From an uncultured Lacticaseibacillus sp. (GTDB taxonomy: Bacteria; Bacillota; Bacilli; Lactobacillales; Lactobacillaceae): a stretch of DNA of 34,608 nt. The position numbers were made by a program, and so were the translations under genes. The DNA lies in assembly GCA_934370925.1 (NCBI GenBank), contig CAKRNG010000021.1, positions 1 to 34,608 of the forward strand. Direction: 5' to 3'. Of this stretch, positions 2,234 to 19,800 are shown piece after piece. Position 1 is the first letter of the stretch. Every line of letters begins with the position of its first letter. The notes under the pieces are model-generated. The model saw only the letters and a program-made list of their open reading frames with translations, searched no databases and was not told the origin of the DNA.

Positions 2234-3043
2234 TTAGCTAAGCAACACCGCGTCGTCGGTCATTGCGTTCCCGCTACGTTCCTTAAACAGGTTGAGCAAG
2301 TCAGGAACGGTGAGGTGCTGTTTCTCTTCACCACGTACATCGACCACAATCTGCCCGTGGTCGAGCATAAGCAGGCGGTTGCCGTACTTCAGGGCGTCGG
2401 CCATGTTGTGGGTAATCATGAGGGCAGTGAGGTTTTGTTCGGCCACAATCTGCGCCGTGAGTGACATCACGGTTGCGCTCGTCTGTGGGTCGAGCGCAGC
2501 GGTATGTTCATCCAGTAATAGCAACTCGGGTTCATGGAGGGTCGCCATGAGCAAGGTGATGGCTTGGCGCTGACCCCCAGACAGAAGTCCAATTTCAGCA
2601 CCCAGACGGTCTTCGAGGCCTAGACCAAGACTCGCAAGCCGTTCGCGGAACAAACCACGTTCGTTGCGTTTCACCCCGTGTGCCCAGAAGTTCCGCCATG
2701 ATCCACGTTTAAGGGCCAGAGAGAGGTTTTCTTCAACGGTTAGTAGGGGGGCAGAACCCTGACGCGGATCCTGGAACACACGACTAATCATGCGGGCGCG
2801 CTTTTCAACGCTTTGGTACGTGACGTCTTTGCCACCAATTTTCACCTGACCGTAAGTAACGGGCAGGGAGCCGGCAACACTGTTGAGAAGCGTGGACTTA
2901 CCGGCCCCGTTCCCACCAATAATCCCGACGAATTCACCGGGTTCAAGTGTGAGGTCAATTCCCTTGAGTGCGTGGTTCTCATTAGGAGTGCCCTTTTCGA
3001 AGTATTGGTGCAGGCCTTTAATTTCAAGTACGGGTGTCGACAT
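2234..3043 (-). CDS. Aromatic amino acid ABC importer, ATP-binding protein (TrpXYZ/COG1101-like)
   Basis: A 269-residue ABC ATPase that would power the neighbouring permease from the cytoplasmic face. Visible motifs are Walker A GGNGAGKST (43-51), the Q-loop VFQDP near 89-93, signature LSGGQRQ (154-160), Walker B LLLLDE (174-179) followed by the family-typical HTAALDP, and the switch histidine in ITHN (H212). This ATPase type normally accompanies COG4120 permeases and COG2984 lipoprotein receptors, the family that includes the streptococcal TrpXYZ tryptophan importer. Its start codon shares one base with the permease stop (TAATG), indicating translational coupling. It is the last gene of the Phe/Tyr leader-controlled operon. 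That the substrate is Phe and Tyr is inferred from the leaders, not from this protein. Confidence 0.9.
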   Translation of the reverse strand: MSTPVLEIKGLHQYFEKGTPNENHALKGIDLTLEPGEFVGIIGGNGAGKSTLLNSVAGSLPVTYGQVKIGGKDVTYQSVEKRARMISRVFQDPRQGSAPLLTVEENLSLALKRGSWRNFWAHGVKRNERGLFRERLASLGLGLEDRLGAEIGLLSGGQRQAITLLMATLHEPELLLLDEHTAALDPQTSATVMSLTAQIVAEQNLTALMITHNMADALKYGNRLLMLDHGQIVVDVRGEEKQHLTVPDLLNLFKERSGNAMTDDAVLLS

Positions 3044-3966
3044 TAGTGAACCTCCTTCTGCATTGCCTTAACGTTCTGCCGCCGTTGCTGGATGCGTTTG
3101 AGGTTCTTTTGAACCAGTGGCAGTGCCAGGAAGACCGTTAGCATTACGGCGTAGAAGAGACGCAGTGCGTTTGGATCAACCCCCCATTCGAGAACGAGGG
3201 CGATAATCAACCGGTAGATGATTGCGCCAAGGATGATTGTGATGAGGCGCCAAGCAAAGCTCAGGTGCCGCAGCAGAATCTCGGCGATAATGATCGCGGC
3301 GAGGGCAATCACGATGGTCCCAATCCCCATGGAAATATCGGCGTATCCGTTTGTCTGCGCCATGAGGGCCCCAGAGAGTGCGATGAGACCGTTACTAATC
3401 ATGTAGACAACAATCTTCATGTTATCTGCGTGAATCCCGTTAGCAGCGGACATGTCTTCGTTGTTCCCGACAGCGCGTGCTGCCAAGCCCATTTCGGTGT
3501 TGAAGAAGAAAACGAGGGCCGCAATGACGACAATCAGGAAGATGGCGCCGACCACAATGGTTGTCATGGTTGAATCGCCCACCTCGATACTGGTGAAGAT
3601 GTTCTTAACGGCTTTACCCGCGTTCGTCATGGTGAGGGGCACGTTTGCCTGGCCCATGATGAACAGGTTGACGGAGTAGAGACCGGTCATGGTCAGAATC
3701 CCGGTGAGAAGATCAGGAATGTGCAGCTTGGTTGTCAGGAAACCAGACACAAGTCCGGCGAGTGCCCCACCTGCTGTTCCCATGAGCGTTGCAGTAATGG
3801 GTCCCATTCCCTGAACCAGGGCGTGGGCGGTGATTGCTGCGCCGAGAGGAAAACTACCCTCGGCTGTCATGTCGGCGATGTCGAGAATACGGAAGGTGAG
3901 GTACACCCCAATGGCCATAATGGACCACAGGATGCCTTGAGCGATACTTGATGTCAGGATATCCAT
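3043..3966 (-). CDS. Aromatic amino acid ABC importer, permease (TrpXYZ/COG4120-like)
   Basis: A 307-residue integral membrane protein with about eight to nine hydrophobic helices, of the branched-chain-amino-acid-permease fold seen in COG4120 proteins. It has the early pattern GVYLTFRILDIADMTAEGSF typical of that group and a basic C-terminus (KRIQQRRQNVKAMQKEVH). The ATG at 3966 follows GGAGG by five bases; an in-frame TTG four codons upstream overlaps the Shine-Dalgarno and is unlikely to be the start. It lies 31 bases after receptor 1 and overlaps the ATPase gene by one base. It would form the membrane channel shared by both lipoprotein receptors. Only one permease and one ATPase are present for two receptors. 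Confidence 0.9.
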   Translation of the reverse strand: MDILTSSIAQGILWSIMAIGVYLTFRILDIADMTAEGSFPLGAAITAHALVQGMGPITATLMGTAGGALAGLVSGFLTTKLHIPDLLTGILTMTGLYSVNLFIMGQANVPLTMTNAGKAVKNIFTSIEVGDSTMTTIVVGAIFLIVVIAALVFFFNTEMGLAARAVGNNEDMSAANGIHADNMKIVVYMISNGLIALSGALMAQTNGYADISMGIGTIVIALAAIIIAEILLRHLSFAWRLITIILGAIIYRLIIALVLEWGVDPNALRLFYAVMLTVFLALPLVQKNLKRIQQRRQNVKAMQKEVH

Positions 3967-3997
3967 GATTACCTCCAAAAGATAATAGAAAAAAAGT

Positions 3998-4957
3998 TTA
4001 CTTTAAAACACTAGCGTCAACGTTGAAGAGTTTCATGCGTTTTTCGTTCTTAACAATCGATGTCTTCTTTGGACTTTCAACCGCGAGCTGCTTAACCTTC
4101 TTGCCCTTCAGAATCTTGATGGCCATGTCAGCGGTTTGCTTCCCAAGTTCCTTGTAGCTAATCCCACGTGTTGCGACCCCAGCCTGCTTAATCATGGTGG
4201 CGTCCGCATTCACAACTGGAACTTTTGCCTTTTCGGAAACCTTGCCGATGGTGGACATTGCGGCTGCAGCCGTGTTATCGGTAGGAATGTAGATGGCGTC
4301 ACACTGGCCAGCCAGTGCGGTTGCCGTCTGTTCAGCATCGTTGGTTGAGGCGATGGTCTTTTCAACGGACTTCAACCCAAGCTTCTTGATGGCTTTACGT
4401 GCCTGCTTGATTTGGATGACGGAGTTCGGTTCAGCTGCGTTGTACAGAAGGCCGACCGTCTTAGCCTTAGGGAACATCTTGTGCAGCAGGGCAATCTGAC
4501 CGTCAATATCAACCGCATCCGTGACCCCAGTGGCATTCTTATCGGGATTGGTGAGGTTTGAAACCAGACCAGAACTCTTTGGGTCGGTAATGGCCGTGAA
4601 CAGCATTGGCGTGTCGGGGTCAGCCTTTTGCAATGCTTGTGCAGCAGGGGTGGCGATTGCCAAGTTCAGGTCGTTTTTGTCGCGTTTGAGCCGCTGACTC
4701 ATCGTGGTCAGGTTACTCTGGTCGCCCTGCGCGTTGACGTAATCAATCTTAATGTTCTTGCCATCCTTGTAGCCGTGAGCGGCAAGTTCCTGTTCGAATC
4801 CCTTGCGTGCGTCATCAAGTGCACTCTGGTTGATTAACTGTAGAATCCCAATCTTAACGGTCTTGGATTCTTTAGCGGATCCCTTACTTCCGCAAGCAGC
4901 AAGCAATGCAACTGTTGCGACCATCGTGGCGGCAACCATCATCTTCTTCAACTTCAT
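3998..4957 (-). CDS. ABC importer substrate-binding lipoprotein 1 (Tyr-leader controlled)
   Basis: A 319-residue lipoprotein of the ABC_sub_bind family (COG2984, relatives include streptococcal TrpX). The N-terminal signal has a lipobox LLAAC with the lipidated cysteine at residue 22, so it is anchored to the outer membrane face and passes ligand to the permease. The mature part shows family features such as IGILQLINQSALDDARKGF and DAIYIPTDNT. I chose the ATG at 4957 (MKLKKMM), aligned with receptor 2 (MKIKKIM) and ten bases from GGAGG; an ATG at 4963 sits only four bases from it. It is a close paralog of receptor 2 in the same operon. Because its leader peptide is tyrosine-rich, I infer tyrosine as the preferred ligand; tryptophan or mixed aromatic binding is possible. 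Confidence 0.9.
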   Translation of the reverse strand: MKLKKMMVAATMVATVALLAACGSKGSAKESKTVKIGILQLINQSALDDARKGFEQELAAHGYKDGKNIKIDYVNAQGDQSNLTTMSQRLKRDKNDLNLAIATPAAQALQKADPDTPMLFTAITDPKSSGLVSNLTNPDKNATGVTDAVDIDGQIALLHKMFPKAKTVGLLYNAAEPNSVIQIKQARKAIKKLGLKSVEKTIASTNDAEQTATALAGQCDAIYIPTDNTAAAAMSTIGKVSEKAKVPVVNADATMIKQAGVATRGISYKELGKQTADMAIKILKGKKVKQLAVESPKKTSIVKNEKRMKLFNVDASVLK

Positions 4958-5017
4958 AATCATTCTTCCTCCAAATTGTTAGGTAACGAACGTGAAATCC
5001 GTTACGCTTGTCTGATA

Positions 5018-5061
5018 AACAACAAAGGCCGACCAGTGGAGCAGTATCCACGTGGCCGGCC
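5018..5061 (-). terminator. Tyr leader terminator T2
   Basis: On the minus strand, GGCCG-G-CCA-(C)-GUGGA pairs with UCCAC-UGG-U-CGGCC (5061-5027) with one bulge and one G.U, followed by UUUGUUGUUU. It lies just upstream of receptor 1. Its 5' arm nearly repeats the 5' arm of T1, so it can pair alternatively with the 3' arm of T1. Confidence 0.7.
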
Positions 5062-5074
5062 AAAATTTTTCCGG

Positions 5075-5114
5075 AAAAATTAAAAGCCACATGGATATTA
5101 TTCATCCATGTGGC
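5075..5114 (-). terminator. Tyr leader terminator T1
   Basis: A perfect 11-bp stem, GCCACAUGGAU with AUCCAUGUGGC, and a 7-base loop, followed on the minus strand by UUUUAAUUUUU. A perfect 18-base palindrome centred on CCGG (5064-5081) follows directly and overlaps the T-tract. Confidence 0.85.
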
Positions 5115-5189
5115 GTCCAAGTACACGTTAAGTGTTACGACCATCATGGATACAAACCTTGAGTCGGCTTGCATCCGTGATGCAAACCG

Positions 5190-5249
5190 CTATCCGTAAT
5201 AGCCGTAGTAATAAGCGTTATTCAAGTTTGTGCAAATGATGTTGGTCAT
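5190..5249 (-). CDS. Tyrosine-rich attenuation leader peptide
   Basis: A 19-codon ORF, MTNIICTNLNNAYYYGYYG, with five Tyr codons among the last seven residues, ending in TAG. AAAGGAG lies eight bases before its ATG. A promoter is placed suitably upstream. It has the same length and the same LNNAxxxGxxG plan as the Phe leader peptide at 6564-6623, with F replaced by Y. This is the layout of the classical enterobacterial amino acid biosynthetic leader peptides (trpL, pheL, hisL). Here the sensed signal is inferred to be charged tRNA-Tyr and the controlled gene is receptor 1. The peptide itself probably has no function after synthesis. Confidence 0.88.
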   Translation of the reverse strand: MTNIICTNLNNAYYYGYYG

Positions 5250-5294
5250 GTCTAGCACTCCTTTAAAGTAATAGCGGTATCGTATGGCTGTAAT

Positions 5295-5321
5295 GTTATA
5301 CTCATGGTTTTTTAAAGTCAA
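5295..5321 (-). promoter_or_regulatory. Promoter of the Tyr leader and receptor 1
   Basis: Read on the minus strand: TTGACT, a 15-base spacer, TATAAC. The boxes are close to consensus but the spacer is short. The predicted start lies about 40 bases before the leader peptide. It lies between the receptor 2 stop and the Tyr leader, so receptor 1 can be transcribed both from here and by readthrough from the Phe unit. Confidence 0.55.
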
Positions 5322-5353
5322 GAAGAATCTTTATATAAATTTGGCGAAAATAA

Positions 5354-6319
5354 TTATTTGATGCTACTTGGGTCGATGTTCAGTGCCTTAGCAGTCTTCT
5401 TGTTCACAATGACAGAAACCTTTGCGGGAGATTCAACGGCGAGGTCCTTCACGTCCTTGCCCTTCAGAATCTTAACGGCCATCTTCGCGGTCTGAACCCC
5501 GAGATCCTTGTAGTCAATCCCGTTGGTTGCGAGACCGCCATCTTCAACCATGGTACTTGCAGCGGCAACAACCGGCGTTTGGGTCTTCGTCGTAATCTTA
5601 CCAACCGTTGCCATGGCTGCAGCCATCGTGTTGTCGGTAGGAATGTAGATGGCGTCAGCCTGACTAGCAAGGGAAGTGGTGGCCTGAGAAACGTCATTCG
5701 TTGAAGCAACCGTCTTTTCAACGACCTTCAAGCCGAGGTTCTTGATGGCAGCCTTCGCCATCTTAATCTGAACAACAGAGTTCGCTTCAGCGGCGTTGTA
5801 AATCAGGCCGATTGTCTTTGCCTTTGGTGCAATTCGGTGAAGAAGCTTGACCTGACCTGCCACGTTCACCATGTCGGTAACCCCAGTGGCATTCTTGTCG
5901 GGTGCCTTGGTGTTCGTAACCAAACCGGCACTCTTAGGATCTGTGATGGCGGTGAAGACCATTGGCGTCTTTGCGTCCACCTTCTGCAAGGCCTGAGCAG
6001 CTGCCGTTGCGATGGCCAAGTTCAGGTCGTTCTTATCGCGCTTCAAACGCTGGCTCATGGTGGTTAGGTTGGCTTGGTCGCCCTGCGCGTTAACATAATC
6101 AATCTTCAGGTTCTTGCCTTTCTTGTAGCCTTCACGTGCGAGTTCCTGGGTGAAGCCTTTACGTGCATCATCGAGGGCGCTCTGGTTAATCAACTGCAGA
6201 ATCCCAATCTTAACAGTCTTGGTGCTGCTGTCCTTTGCGCTACTCTTGCTGCCACAAGCGGCAAGCAGGGCGACACTAGCGACGGTCATTGCGGTGAGCA
6301 TAATTTTCTTAATCTTCAT
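5354..6319 (-). CDS. ABC importer substrate-binding lipoprotein 2 (Phe-leader controlled)
   Basis: A 321-residue COG2984-type lipoprotein, first structural gene of the operon. The lipobox LLAAC places the modified cysteine at residue 22. The mature protein is highly similar to receptor 1 throughout (for example both have IGILQLINQSALDDARKGF, DYVNAQGDQ and LTTMSQRLKRDKNDLNLAIA), pointing to tandem duplication. The ATG at 6319 follows GGAGG by seven bases. No terminator is visible between its stop and the Tyr leader promoter. Its leader peptide carries five Phe codons, so I infer phenylalanine as the preferred ligand. The pair would give one permease/ATPase core two specificities. Direct binding data would be needed to establish the ligand. 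Confidence 0.9.
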   Translation of the reverse strand: MKIKKIMLTAMTVASVALLAACGSKSSAKDSSTKTVKIGILQLINQSALDDARKGFTQELAREGYKKGKNLKIDYVNAQGDQANLTTMSQRLKRDKNDLNLAIATAAAQALQKVDAKTPMVFTAITDPKSAGLVTNTKAPDKNATGVTDMVNVAGQVKLLHRIAPKAKTIGLIYNAAEANSVVQIKMAKAAIKNLGLKVVEKTVASTNDVSQATTSLASQADAIYIPTDNTMAAAMATVGKITTKTQTPVVAAASTMVEDGGLATNGIDYKDLGVQTAKMAVKILKGKDVKDLAVESPAKVSVIVNKKTAKALNIDPSSIK

Positions 6320-6400
6320 GATAATTCCTCCAAGAATGTTCTATCTGTTTTCTTTCTCAACAAGCTTGCCGTTTAACGCTCAGGCTGCGCATCCTGATAA

Positions 6401-6440
6401 TTAAAAAACGACCGGCCACAATCCACGTGGCCGGTCGTTT
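6401..6440 (-). terminator. Phe leader terminator T2
   Basis: A perfect 14-bp stem (6406-6419 with 6427-6440), 7-base loop, followed on the minus strand by a run of U. It is the last barrier before receptor 2. Its 5' arm contains GCCACGUGGAUU, a near copy of the 5' arm of T1. Confidence 0.88.
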
Positions 6441-6445
6441 CCCGG

Positions 6446-6492
6446 AAAATAAAAACCGCCACAATGGATTTGGTGTTCAATCCATGTGGCGG
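6446..6492 (-). terminator. Phe leader terminator T1
   Basis: Two 7-bp helices separated by a single bulged base (6456-6470 with 6479-6492), then UUUUUAUUUU on the minus strand. It is mutually exclusive with the antiterminator 3:4 and with 5:6. Confidence 0.82.
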
Positions 6493-6563
6493 GTGAATGG
6501 CAAGTTAAATTGCTTCGGCCTCATGGATGCAAGCGACGCGGCTTGCATCCACGATGCAAACCG

Positions 6564-6623
6564 CTACCCGAAAAAGCCGAAGAAAAACGCGTTATTCAGT
6601 TGTGTCTGGTTGATTTTACTCAT
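6564..6623 (-). CDS. Phenylalanine-rich attenuation leader peptide
   Basis: A 19-codon ORF, MSKINQTQLNNAFFFGFFG, ending in TAG, with five Phe codons in the last seven. AAGGAGTG lies about six to ten bases before the ATG, and a strong promoter lies about 40 bases further upstream. The C-terminal plan LNNAFFFGFFG is that of the Tyr leader (LNNAYYYGYYG), with all five aromatic codons swapped and the glycines kept. This is strong evidence that the encoded residues matter. A ribosome starved of Phe-tRNA would stall here and allow readthrough into receptor 2. The stop codon overlaps the first base of pairing segment 1. Confidence 0.9.
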   Translation of the reverse strand: MSKINQTQLNNAFFFGFFG

Positions 6624-6669
6624 CAGGAGCACTCCTTACTTTGATAGCGATAATTTGTTTACGAGAATG

Positions 6670-6698
6670 AGAATACCGAAGTTAGTGGAACCTGTCAA
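6670..6698 (-). promoter_or_regulatory. Promoter of the Phe/Tyr importer operon
   Basis: Consensus -35 TTGACA, a 17-base spacer and -10 TATTCT on the minus strand. The predicted start near 6663 gives a leader RNA of about 340 bases before receptor 2, the first 40 of which precede the leader peptide. Confidence 0.75.
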
Positions 6699-6801
6699 TA
6701 CGTAATATTAAAAAAATCGAAATTGATGGCGTTATTAAATTGTGTTAAATGAGCTTTGATGAGAAAAATGAACAAGTTAGCCTCATAGACAGCACAGGGT
6801 G

Positions 6802-7015
6802 GGTGCGCCATAAGTCCAAGGTACACGAATGTTACATCCTAAGTCGATTCTATGCTAATGCTCAAAAGTTCCCGGGATGCGTCGCTCTGTTTTTAGTCGC
6901 GCGCCAGAAGACTGTCCCCTCACATACAAGGCAGGCCCGACAGAAATCCTAAGTGCGGGATTTCTGTCGGGCCTGCCTTGTATACCGGGGCCAAACCGTC
7001 TTCTGGCGCAGCCTC
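6802..7015. repeat. Modular hairpin repeat, copy B (mosaic)
   Basis: It has the same left and right end modules as copy A. Between them lies first a piece of the type-2 middle (about 6846-6890, matching copies C and F read in reverse), then a type-1 palindrome. That palindrome is a perfect 26-bp stem (6924-6949 with 6958-6983) with an 8-base loop. Compared with copy A, both arms have changed together (GG/CC to GA/TC and neighbouring pairs), so pairing is retained. It separates the 7030-7503 gene from the importer operon promoter and may act as a terminator for the former. Confidence 0.85.
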
Positions 7016-7712: not shown

Positions 7713-7892
7713 GAGTGCGCCATAAATTCAAGGCACACGAACGTTACATCCAGTCGAGCTACGTGCCCCAGAAGTCTGCGCTTAACCCAGAGTTGATTGC
7801 AGCGGAAAATCACCGCCTCCATCAATTCTACGTTAATGCTCAATTTCTGACCGGGGCACTGCGCTCTGTTATTCGTCTTCTGGCGCAGCCTC
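7713..7892. repeat. Modular hairpin repeat, copy C (type-2 middle)
   Basis: The left module (GTGCGCCATAA...ACATCCAGTCG) and right module (GTCTTCTGGCGCAGCC) are those of copies A and B. The middle is the reverse complement of the 123-bp unit at 19491, including an inner stem built on a TTGAT / ATCAA core around a CACCGCCTCC segment. It lies between a divergent gene pair, immediately upstream of the lexA promoter. No conserved reading frame is present. Confidence 0.8.
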
Positions 7893-19493: not shown

Positions 19494-19753
19494 GGAAACA
19501 GAGCAGAACATCCCGGGAGCTTTTGAGCATTAGCATAGAATTGATGGAGGTGGTGGGTTTCCACCGCAATCAATTCTGGGCTAAGCGGAAAAAGCTGGGA
19601 TGTGGCGCTCGACTAAGGAAACAGAGCAGAACATCCCGGGAGCTTTTGAGCATTAGCATAGAATTGATGGAGGTGGTGGGTTTCCACCGCAATCGATTCT
19701 GGGCTAAGCGGAAAAAGCTGGGATGTGGCGCTCGACTAAGGAAACAGAGCAGC
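19491..19753. repeat. 123-bp tandem duplication of a hairpin repeat (copy F)
   Basis: Two units start at 19491 and 19614, and a third is cut off after about 17 bases at 19737-19753. The period is exactly 123 bases and the units differ at one base (CAATCAATTC versus CAATCGATTC). Each unit can fold into a long stem: ACATCCC...AGCTTTT with AAAAGCT...GGGATGT outside, and AGAATTGAT with ATCAATTCT inside. The sequence is the reverse complement of the middle of copy C. Because 123 is a multiple of three, an 80-codon frame stays open across the units, but its relatives elsewhere conserve no frame. Confidence 0.92.
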
Positions 19754-19800
19754 GCAAACCGGTGAAAAATGAAGATTAACGTGAAAATGGAGCGGTCATC

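Follow-up and report, generated by a model that had tools for sequence, protein, structure and literature searches.

The stretch of DNA analysed here, which we call the window, is the 34,608-nucleotide contig CAKRNG010000021.1 of an uncultured Lacticaseibacillus sp. Its minus strand carries a transporter operon in the order Phe leader, protein A, Tyr leader, protein B, permease and ATPase, in which two short open reading frames (ORFs) each precede one of two paralogous substrate-binding lipoproteins (A and B, 72% identical) and a single permease and ATPase lie downstream. We consider it highly probable that each short ORF is the leader of a ribosome-mediated transcription attenuator, one tuned to Phe and the other to Tyr, and each placed before the matching binding protein. 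The leaders and genes are as follows.

6623..6564, minus strand: Phe leader ORF, ATG to TAG, MSKINQTQLNNAFFFGFFG (from sequence; type conserved in the genus)
5354..6319, minus strand: substrate-binding lipoprotein A, predicted Phe type with Ala254 and Tyr270 (PF04392; pocket residues)
5249..5190, minus strand: Tyr leader ORF, ATG to TAG, MTNIICTNLNNAYYYGYYG (from sequence; type conserved in the genus)
3998..4963, minus strand: substrate-binding lipoprotein B, predicted Tyr type with Asp at the Tyr-hydroxyl position (PF04392; pocket residue)
3043..3978, minus strand: permease (PF02653; a permease gene lies beside the binding proteins at 29 of 29 genus loci checked)
2234..3043, minus strand: ATPase (PF00005)

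Two leader ORFs and their conservation in Lacticaseibacillus

As translated from the window, each leader comprises 19 residues and a stop codon, and its start is preceded at about 8 bases by the ribosome-binding site AAGGAG or AAAGGAG. The aromatic block reads TTT TTC TTC GGC TTT TTC GGG TAG in the Phe leader and TAT TAC TAC GGC TAT TAC GGA TAG in the Tyr leader. With GGG/GGA excepted, the two blocks differ at the second codon position only, and all five aromatic codons are exchanged between Phe and Tyr while LNNA and the glycines are retained.

Thirty genomes of the genus were searched, starting from loci of L. songhuajiangensis, L. zhaodongensis and L. camelliae, and the protein loci were then fetched. 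A leader of this kind was present in all 30, with both types in 28 and the Tyr type only in two. The gene order is Phe-Tyr in 12 genomes, Tyr-Phe in 14 and Tyr-Tyr-Phe in two and, order swaps notwithstanding, each leader keeps to its own paralogue. All 64 genus leaders have an ATG and a loosely defined ribosome-binding site, a figure that is partly a product of choice, since the picking rule favoured both. At 31 loci with a more distant paralogue, no Phe/Tyr leader was found on either strand, two of these loci (L038 and L043) offering fewer than 160 bases 5′ of the match. Conservation in the genus and absence at these 31 loci together exclude a chance origin of the leaders. The original prediction, made from the letters of this stretch, had described two 19-codon ORFs before paralogous lipoprotein genes with all five aromatic codons exchanged and LNNA and the glycines kept; the ORFs proved real by their starts, ribosome-binding sites and recurrence across the genus, and the exchange was borne out by the codon sequence.

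The exact Tyr-codon pattern occurs in 29 of 397 genomes of the family; of the four outside the genus, three are real (L110-L112) and the fourth (L084) lies, by translation, inside a kinase-like gene. Some binding-protein genes of the genus (at L062, L073 and L078) look broken or split into pieces.

RNA structure and a candidate two-terminator switch

Downstream of each stop codon lie, in order, segments 1a, 1b and 2, a small spacer, segments 3 and 4, and then segments 5 and 6. The elements of the two leader RNAs are listed below.

6575..6582, minus strand: Phe leader, codon stem, 5′ strand (UUC-GGC codons; partner strand 6513-6520, covariation in 6 of 8 pairs)
6554..6562, minus strand: Phe leader, segment 1a (pairs with 1b in the alternative fold)
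6540..6550, minus strand: Phe leader, segment 1b (pairs with segment 2; 98.6% of cells paired in this helix)
6518..6534, minus strand: Phe leader, segment 2 (pairs with 1b, or with segment 3 to form the antiterminator)
6513..6520, minus strand: Phe leader, codon stem, 3′ strand, GGCCGAAG (comparative pairing)
6458..6490, minus strand: Phe leader, terminator 1, segments 3 and 4 (folding and alignment)
6403..6436, minus strand: Phe leader, terminator 2, segments 5 and 6, with U run (folding)
5201..5208, minus strand: Tyr leader, codon stem, 5′ strand (comparative pairing)
5180..5188, minus strand: Tyr leader, segment 1a (alternative fold)
5166..5176, minus strand: Tyr leader, segment 1b (comparative pairing)
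5140..5157, minus strand: Tyr leader, segment 2 (comparative pairing, both folds)
5135..5142, minus strand: Tyr leader, codon stem, 3′ strand (comparative pairing)
5086..5114, minus strand: Tyr leader, terminator 1, segments 3 and 4 (folding and alignment)
5020..5061, minus strand: Tyr leader, terminator 2, segments 5 and 6, with U-rich tail (folding)

The two leader RNAs of the window fold 7.0 and 7.5 standard deviations below shuffled sequence. Comparative evidence comes from an alignment of 57 of 59 distinct attenuators, from which the near-copies L058 Tyr and L062 Phe were omitted; the L047 Tyr leader was outside the underlying collection, and one spurious ORF of 66 had been removed. Without guidance, RNAalifold recovered the 1b:2 stem, terminator 1 and a stem joining the aromatic codons to a strand past segment 2. 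Over the whole structure 96.1% of cells are paired and 14 pairs are changed on both sides, and none of 500 shuffles was as high on either measure. The cells changed on both sides number 108 against a shuffled mean of 33.2, a value again reached by none of 500 shuffles and compared with 9 to 26 in slid controls; on one of the five measures, further pair types, 12 of 500 shuffles reached the observed value.

The codon stem is itself 92.8% paired, with both-side changes in six of its eight pairs. The second base of the third block codon and its partner form A-U in 26 attenuators, U-A in 8, C-G in 13 and G-U in 5, with A facing C in the remaining 5 (n=57); in most cases, then, the RNA compensates for the Phe/Tyr (or Ala/Thr) identity of this codon. 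Since the codons also build one side of a stem, sensing another amino acid would need a matching downstream change, as the relatives indeed show. A search of related genomes for aromatic leaders with conserved codons, which the original prediction had proposed, thus yielded both the leaders and compensated Phe/Tyr exchanges.

From these pairings we infer a response to amino acid supply that includes a coupling of the two terminators and a contribution of the nascent peptide. With enough Phe- or Tyr-transfer RNA (tRNA), the ribosome would reach the stop codon and cover segment 1a, leaving 1b to pair with 2; segments 3 and 4 would then form terminator 1 and segments 5 and 6 terminator 2, and transcription would stop. 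A ribosome stalled at one of the first three codons of the aromatic block would open the codon stem and leave 1a and 1b paired, allowing 2 to pair with 3. The freed segment 4 would pair with 5, so that terminator 2 would be disarmed too, and this domino probably acts over both terminators. A conserved Leu-Asn in the nascent peptide probably strengthens or times the pause. Each leader thus combines a translatable ORF in which the codons of one amino acid recur, terminator and antiterminator pairings that comparison supports as mutually exclusive, and an intrinsic terminator before the gene, the last recognized from sequence.

Ensemble folding of transcripts ending after segment 3 was carried out for 66 distinct leaders, with the ribosome edge set at +11, +14 or +17. 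At +14, stalls at the first, second and third aromatic codon gave 2:3 a paired probability of 0.70, 0.70 and 0.59, whereas it was 0.25 for the fourth codon, 0.21 for the fifth and 0.33 for the stop codon; at +11 the pattern was the same except at codon 4 (2:3 = 0.59). At both edges stalls at codons 1-3 favour 2:3 (0.59-0.74) and the stop codon favours 1b:2 (0.62-0.75). A shift towards 2:3 by more than 0.2 was seen in 47 of 70 leaders, and two shift the opposite way. The Phe leader of the window fits the model, with 2:3 against 1b:2 at 0.11 and 0.87 for the stop codon and at 0.53 and 0.45 for a first-codon stall. The folding supports the direction of the switch but hinges on the footprint chosen.

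The domino is proposed for the genus on the grounds that the 5′ arm and loop of terminator 2 fit the 3′ arm of their own terminator 1 better than that of another attenuator. Among 61 genus attenuators, 4:5 pairing averages -19.5 kcal/mol for own and -15.6 for swapped partners, with the own partner better in 55 (26 of 29 Phe and 29 of 32 Tyr) and none of 5000 permutations reaching so low a value. These counts, and that of a U-rich tail at terminator 2 in 73 of 78 leaders, come from the 78 leaders in which a script delimited both hairpins; for a small number, such as the Phe leaders of L046, L056 and L060, it misplaced terminator 2. A near-palindrome like TTTCCGGAAA lies between terminators 1 and 2 (window ~5062-5085 and 6437-6457) and can be seen by eye in many, not all, genus leaders.

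Several results count against the switch as drawn. With the edge at +17 the stop-codon state favours 2:3 on average (0.60 vs 0.35). A ribosome held at codon 4 or 5 gives preference to 1b:2 with the edge at +14 or +17, and at +11 this is so for codon 5 only. The Tyr leader of the window favours 2:3 at +14 even in the stop state (0.62 vs 0.34; first-codon stall, 0.92). After terminator 1 has formed completely, 2:3 is lost at equilibrium in every state, which requires a kinetic switch. The alternative fold of 1a:1b and 2:3 is conserved in the alignment, with 90.3% of cells paired; on two measures, however, shuffles equalled it as a whole 13 and 69 times in 500. Within it the 2:3 helix has 88.3% of cells paired, both-side changes in only 2 of 11 pairs, and two outer pairs formed in just 28 and 36 of 57 attenuators; as aligned, this helix is supported by conservation more than by covariation. 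As to the domino, the permutations in the genus ignore kinship, the gain in other genera is smaller (own -11.2 vs swapped -8.3 kcal/mol, better in 11 of 17), and eight leaders of the Trp type described below pair weakly at 4:5 (-2.4 to -9.9 kcal/mol). Given this weaker pairing outside the genus and in Trp leaders, we do not extend the domino to the family.

Leader identity and the ligand pocket of the led protein

Both lipoproteins score above the gathering cut-off of the ABC_sub_bind family (PF04392; 246.4 and 265.6 bits against 25.9), and their nearest solved relatives by sequence are 6hni and 3lft. In CD0873 of this family, Glu263 holds the Tyr hydroxyl; the Phe binder VC_1101 and the Trp binder SP1069 both have Ala there, and the Trp binder has Gln284 in place of Tyr279 (PMC6816091). 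The same selectivity positions can be located in A and B; leader-peptide control of these three proteins is not mentioned in the available part of that article. At the positions of Glu263 and Tyr279, A has Ala and Tyr and B has Asp and Tyr. Reading the Asp of B as a Tyr-type acid is an analogy, because the published acid is Glu; A is likely of Phe type and, by that analogy, B of Tyr type.

The pocket residues could be mapped on 117 of 128 led proteins, 11 rows with incomplete proteins being dropped. The residue at the Glu263 position is Ala in 27, Ser in 7 and Val in 2 of the Phe-led proteins (n=36), and Asp in 33, Thr in 7, Ser in 6 and Ala in 1 of the Tyr-led (n=47). Proteins behind mixed Phe/Tyr leaders (n=25) have Ser in 18, Ala in 4, Phe in 2 and Asp in 1, and all nine Trp-led proteins carry the Trp-type pair of Ala and Gln. 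The TrpX equivalog NF041285 separates the groups in the same way. Its cut-off of 390 bits was passed by all three Trp-led proteins tested (455.6, 443.6 and 440.3 bits) and by none of five Phe/Tyr-led ones; the two window proteins score 334.1 and 341.9 bits.

On a protein tree of 102 of 115 rows (five non-binding proteins and eight under 200 residues left out), the leader label changes 10 times, against a shuffled mean of 44.8, and one supported clade holds 33 Tyr-led proteins, window B among them. For the tree rows with a Phe or Tyr leader (n=80), pocket and leader are associated (Fisher p 4e-14, uncorrected for kinship). At L182 (6171 bases), three tandem binding-protein paralogues have mixed, Phe-only and Tyr-only leaders, and the sister paralogues with Phe and Tyr leaders are, on the tree, an independent exchange. 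The L055 Tyr protein, a mistranslated outlier in the tree, was removed for the contrast test and is still counted, as a misreading, among the 33 Asp. Two points weaken the association: Ser stands in seven of the 36 Phe-led proteins, and the four independent contrasts on supported branches, of which 2.5 agree on average and none opposes, are not significant alone.

The original prediction had the leader pair controlling one transporter operon; one permease and one ATPase do follow, but each attenuator stands before its own binding protein. The two leaders may also have separate promoters, to judge from the consensus matches below, in a scan that gave five sites in the whole stretch against 2.2 expected.

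6670..6698, minus strand: promoter-like site before the Phe leader (TTGACA, 17, TATTCT; predicted, consensus scan 10/12)
5293..5321, minus strand: promoter-like site before the Tyr leader (TTGACT, 17, TAACAT; predicted, consensus scan 9/12)

Between the operon and the next gene, a long inverted repeat seen by eye at ~6930-6990 is perhaps a terminator, and the text flanking it partly recurs near 7720-7890. Elsewhere in the window, at 19523-19765, a short ORF built of the repeated segment SISIELMEVVGFHRN is likely an intergenic repeat and not a gene.

Relatives across Lactobacillales and competing explanations

An RNA model built from 57 sequences matched 98 of 397 genomes of the family at an expectation value (E) of 0.01 and 212 of 395 genomes of the order at E 0.001 (the samples overlap), and the idea of a genus-restricted element was dropped. 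The best-scoring hits were fetched and read. A leader is present at 65 of the 67 best family hits (60 loci; L199 and L200 lack one), of Tyr, Phe, mixed Phe/Tyr or single-Trp (RWQSR) type, the last before TrpX-type proteins. Five leaders (L154, L162, L169, L191 and L194) immediately precede transketolase, the source of erythrose 4-phosphate for aromatic synthesis; these carry all three aromatics, as in YYYYWFFK, YYYFWFFS and RYYWFS, and the element lies ~400-560 from the start of the gene-side strand. At L172 and L181 the leaders FAFSLFG and GAFSLFG precede an amino acid permease (AA_permease_2, checked for L181). The 41 best hits in the order (40 loci) precede aroE-like genes in 21 cases, binding-protein genes in 18, and aroC and a dehydroquinate synthase-like gene once each; these genes were named from their N-termini, with families checked for examples, and L240, an ORF read from an inner start, had no Pfam match. 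The setting is larger than the original prediction supposed: its Phe/Tyr pair is real but not isolated, being one branch of an order-wide set of Phe, Tyr, mixed and Trp leaders.

The peptide itself is conserved in part. Leu-Asn, in a pattern that also admits Ile-Asn and Phe-Asn, occurs in 104 of 108 distinct leaders, and in 103 of these 104 it lies 10-12 residues from the C-terminus (Leu at 11 in 76, 10 in 15, 12 in 12 and 9 in 1). Its Leu uses six codons (CTG 38, TTG 18, CTT 17, CTA 14, TTA 9 and CTC 4), and Leu-Asn is thus kept as peptide, not as codons. The genus leaders were first gathered with a pattern favouring Leu-Asn; the RNA model begins eight codons before the stop, with Leu-Asn outside it, and leaders picked at its hits regardless of the motif contain it in 60 of 65 cases in the family and 35 of 41 in the order. 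When the ribosome is at the stop codon, Leu-Asn would presumably lie near the tunnel constriction.

In principle the nascent peptide itself could detect free aromatic amino acid, by an arrest of the TnaC type, with tRNA charging mattering little. The nearly constant position of a Leu written in six codons would suit such sensing, as would the conserved TAG (55 of 59 attenuators) and the GGA preceding it (56 of 59) and the single Trp codon of RWQSR-type leaders, which offers little for tRNA sensing and tells against our preferred explanation. Set against this, Leu-Asn is lacking in 5 of the 65 family-level leaders, 6 of the 41 order-level leaders and 16 of 30 leaders at the trpB motif, taken up below (14 have it). 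Moreover, the aromatic codons are repeated and exchanged blockwise to suit the transporter, as tRNA sensing needs, and the computed switch operates with stalls at early aromatic codons. We regard sensing by the peptide alone as unlikely, though it is the strongest competitor of attenuation through tRNA charging.

A metabolite-binding riboswitch, with the ORF incidental, has the conserved structure in its favour, and it was the interpretation initially favoured for the trpB motif (RF04312, SRC-39-1). This motif, a terminator and preceding hairpin before amino acid ATP-binding cassette (ABC) transporters and trpB, was published as a strong riboswitch candidate, with a classic attenuator left possible by the authors and no ORF mentioned in the available part of the article (PMC11109978). 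A search of 246 genomes of the order gave matches in 87 at E 1e-5, 47 of them above the family cut-off, and all of the best 30 loci (L246, L251-L279) have a Trp-containing ORF led by a ribosome-binding site and ending 9-27 bases 5′ of the motif. These leaders contain WQNWRR or WQSWRR in 14 and close variants in the rest, with a single Trp in three (L251, L263 and L272). Across the phylum, five of 299 genomes matched (L246-L250), L246 above the cut-off: L249 is the Tyr attenuator of L. songhuajiangensis (E 6.8e-4), the L250 match lies inside a long reading frame, and no Trp-codon ORF was found at L247 or L248. The Tyr element of the window scores 34.7 bits, below the threshold of 59. Given a Trp leader at 30 of 30 loci, the motif most likely represents the 3′ half of attenuators with Trp leaders, and these probably form the Trp branch of the same family, to judge by the design of the leaders and by weak model scores. 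An ORF of this kind at each of these loci makes a riboswitch very improbable, as do aromatic codons that differ according to the transporter and covary with the strand they pair with.

Action of the leader RNA or peptide mainly in trans, as small RNA or small protein, appears equally improbable. It draws on the partial conservation of the peptide and on the related sRNA_2410 of E. faecium (RF02863), reported as a small RNA of 195 bases that Northern blots showed as two transcripts, in a paper whose main text contains neither ‘leader’ nor ‘attenuat’ (PMC5593968). RF02863 scores above its gathering threshold in 12 of 20 order-level loci (L207, L209, L211, L213, L214, L217, L221, L222, L225, L229, L230 and L233) and for both elements of L156; the Tyr element of the window reaches 28.4 bits against a threshold of 61, and the Phe element gave no match. 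Compared through its Rfam model rather than its E. faecium locus, sRNA_2410 includes leader codons paired as in the codon stem, and two transcripts are what two terminators would give. In the loci read, the element, with its terminators and alternative pairings, lies immediately 5′ of a gene that serves the transport or synthesis of aromatic amino acids, and the first five residues of the peptide are variable; these points speak against action in trans. Public database entries thus already include relatives of the element, under the name of a small RNA and probably also under that of a riboswitch candidate.

T-box control is usual in Firmicutes, and TrpX of Streptococcus suis is reportedly T-box regulated, but a T-box with fortuitous ORFs can practically be dismissed here: no T-box was found at gathering level in the window or in 20 related loci, nor at E up to 1 over 4950-6750. 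Searches of the window at gathering level found no other known RNA family.

Ribosome-mediated attenuators are well known from trpL and pheL of Enterobacteria. The window leaders resemble them in a leader ORF with repeated codons of the regulated amino acid and in alternative antiterminator and terminator, but differ in that two leaders for different residues share one operon, the leader codons form part of a stem, two terminators stand in tandem, the peptide has a conserved Leu-Asn and the genes that follow encode transporter binding proteins. The original prediction contrasted ribosome-mediated attenuation with the T-box RNAs of Firmicutes; the T-box is indeed lacking here, but the contrast itself is too sharp, as His-codon leader peptides before his/hisS genes have been reported as attenuators in Firmicutes, for another amino acid and other genes, and with no Phe/Tyr/Trp series in Lactobacillales described in the available parts of those articles (PMC2965389, PMC9413887). 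In the open-licence literature we found no description of Phe, Tyr or Trp leader peptides for Lactobacillales transporters or aro genes, in agreement with the original prediction, whose author knew of no such pair. Its central proposal, residue-specific ribosome stalling, stands as the best reading, with conserved leaders, alternative pairings, no T-box and leaders that track the predicted ligand.

Beyond the single operon, we put forward tentatively, and as a possibility that may well prove wrong, that one re-codable aromatic sensor scaffold operates across Lactobacillales. In it a pause-prone Leu-Asn peptide and a codon stem would be retuned to Phe, Tyr, Trp or mixtures by swaps of codons and partners, repeatedly and in step with the ligand pocket, with a two-terminator domino in Lacticaseibacillus and with nascent Leu-Asn taking part in sensing or timing, which is not a known need of trp-type attenuators.

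Auxotrophy for aromatic amino acids is common among dairy and probiotic bacteria of this sort. With a Phe and a Tyr copy, the operon carries its own internal control for tests of codon-specific sensing, and a cascade of RNA switches could be studied cleanly on its tandem terminators. If this account is true, the leaders would be a leader-peptide counterpart of the T-box system for aromatic amino acids in Lactobacillales, would account for an Rfam small RNA and a published riboswitch candidate, and would allow the amino acid carried by an uncharacterized transporter to be predicted from its leader codons.

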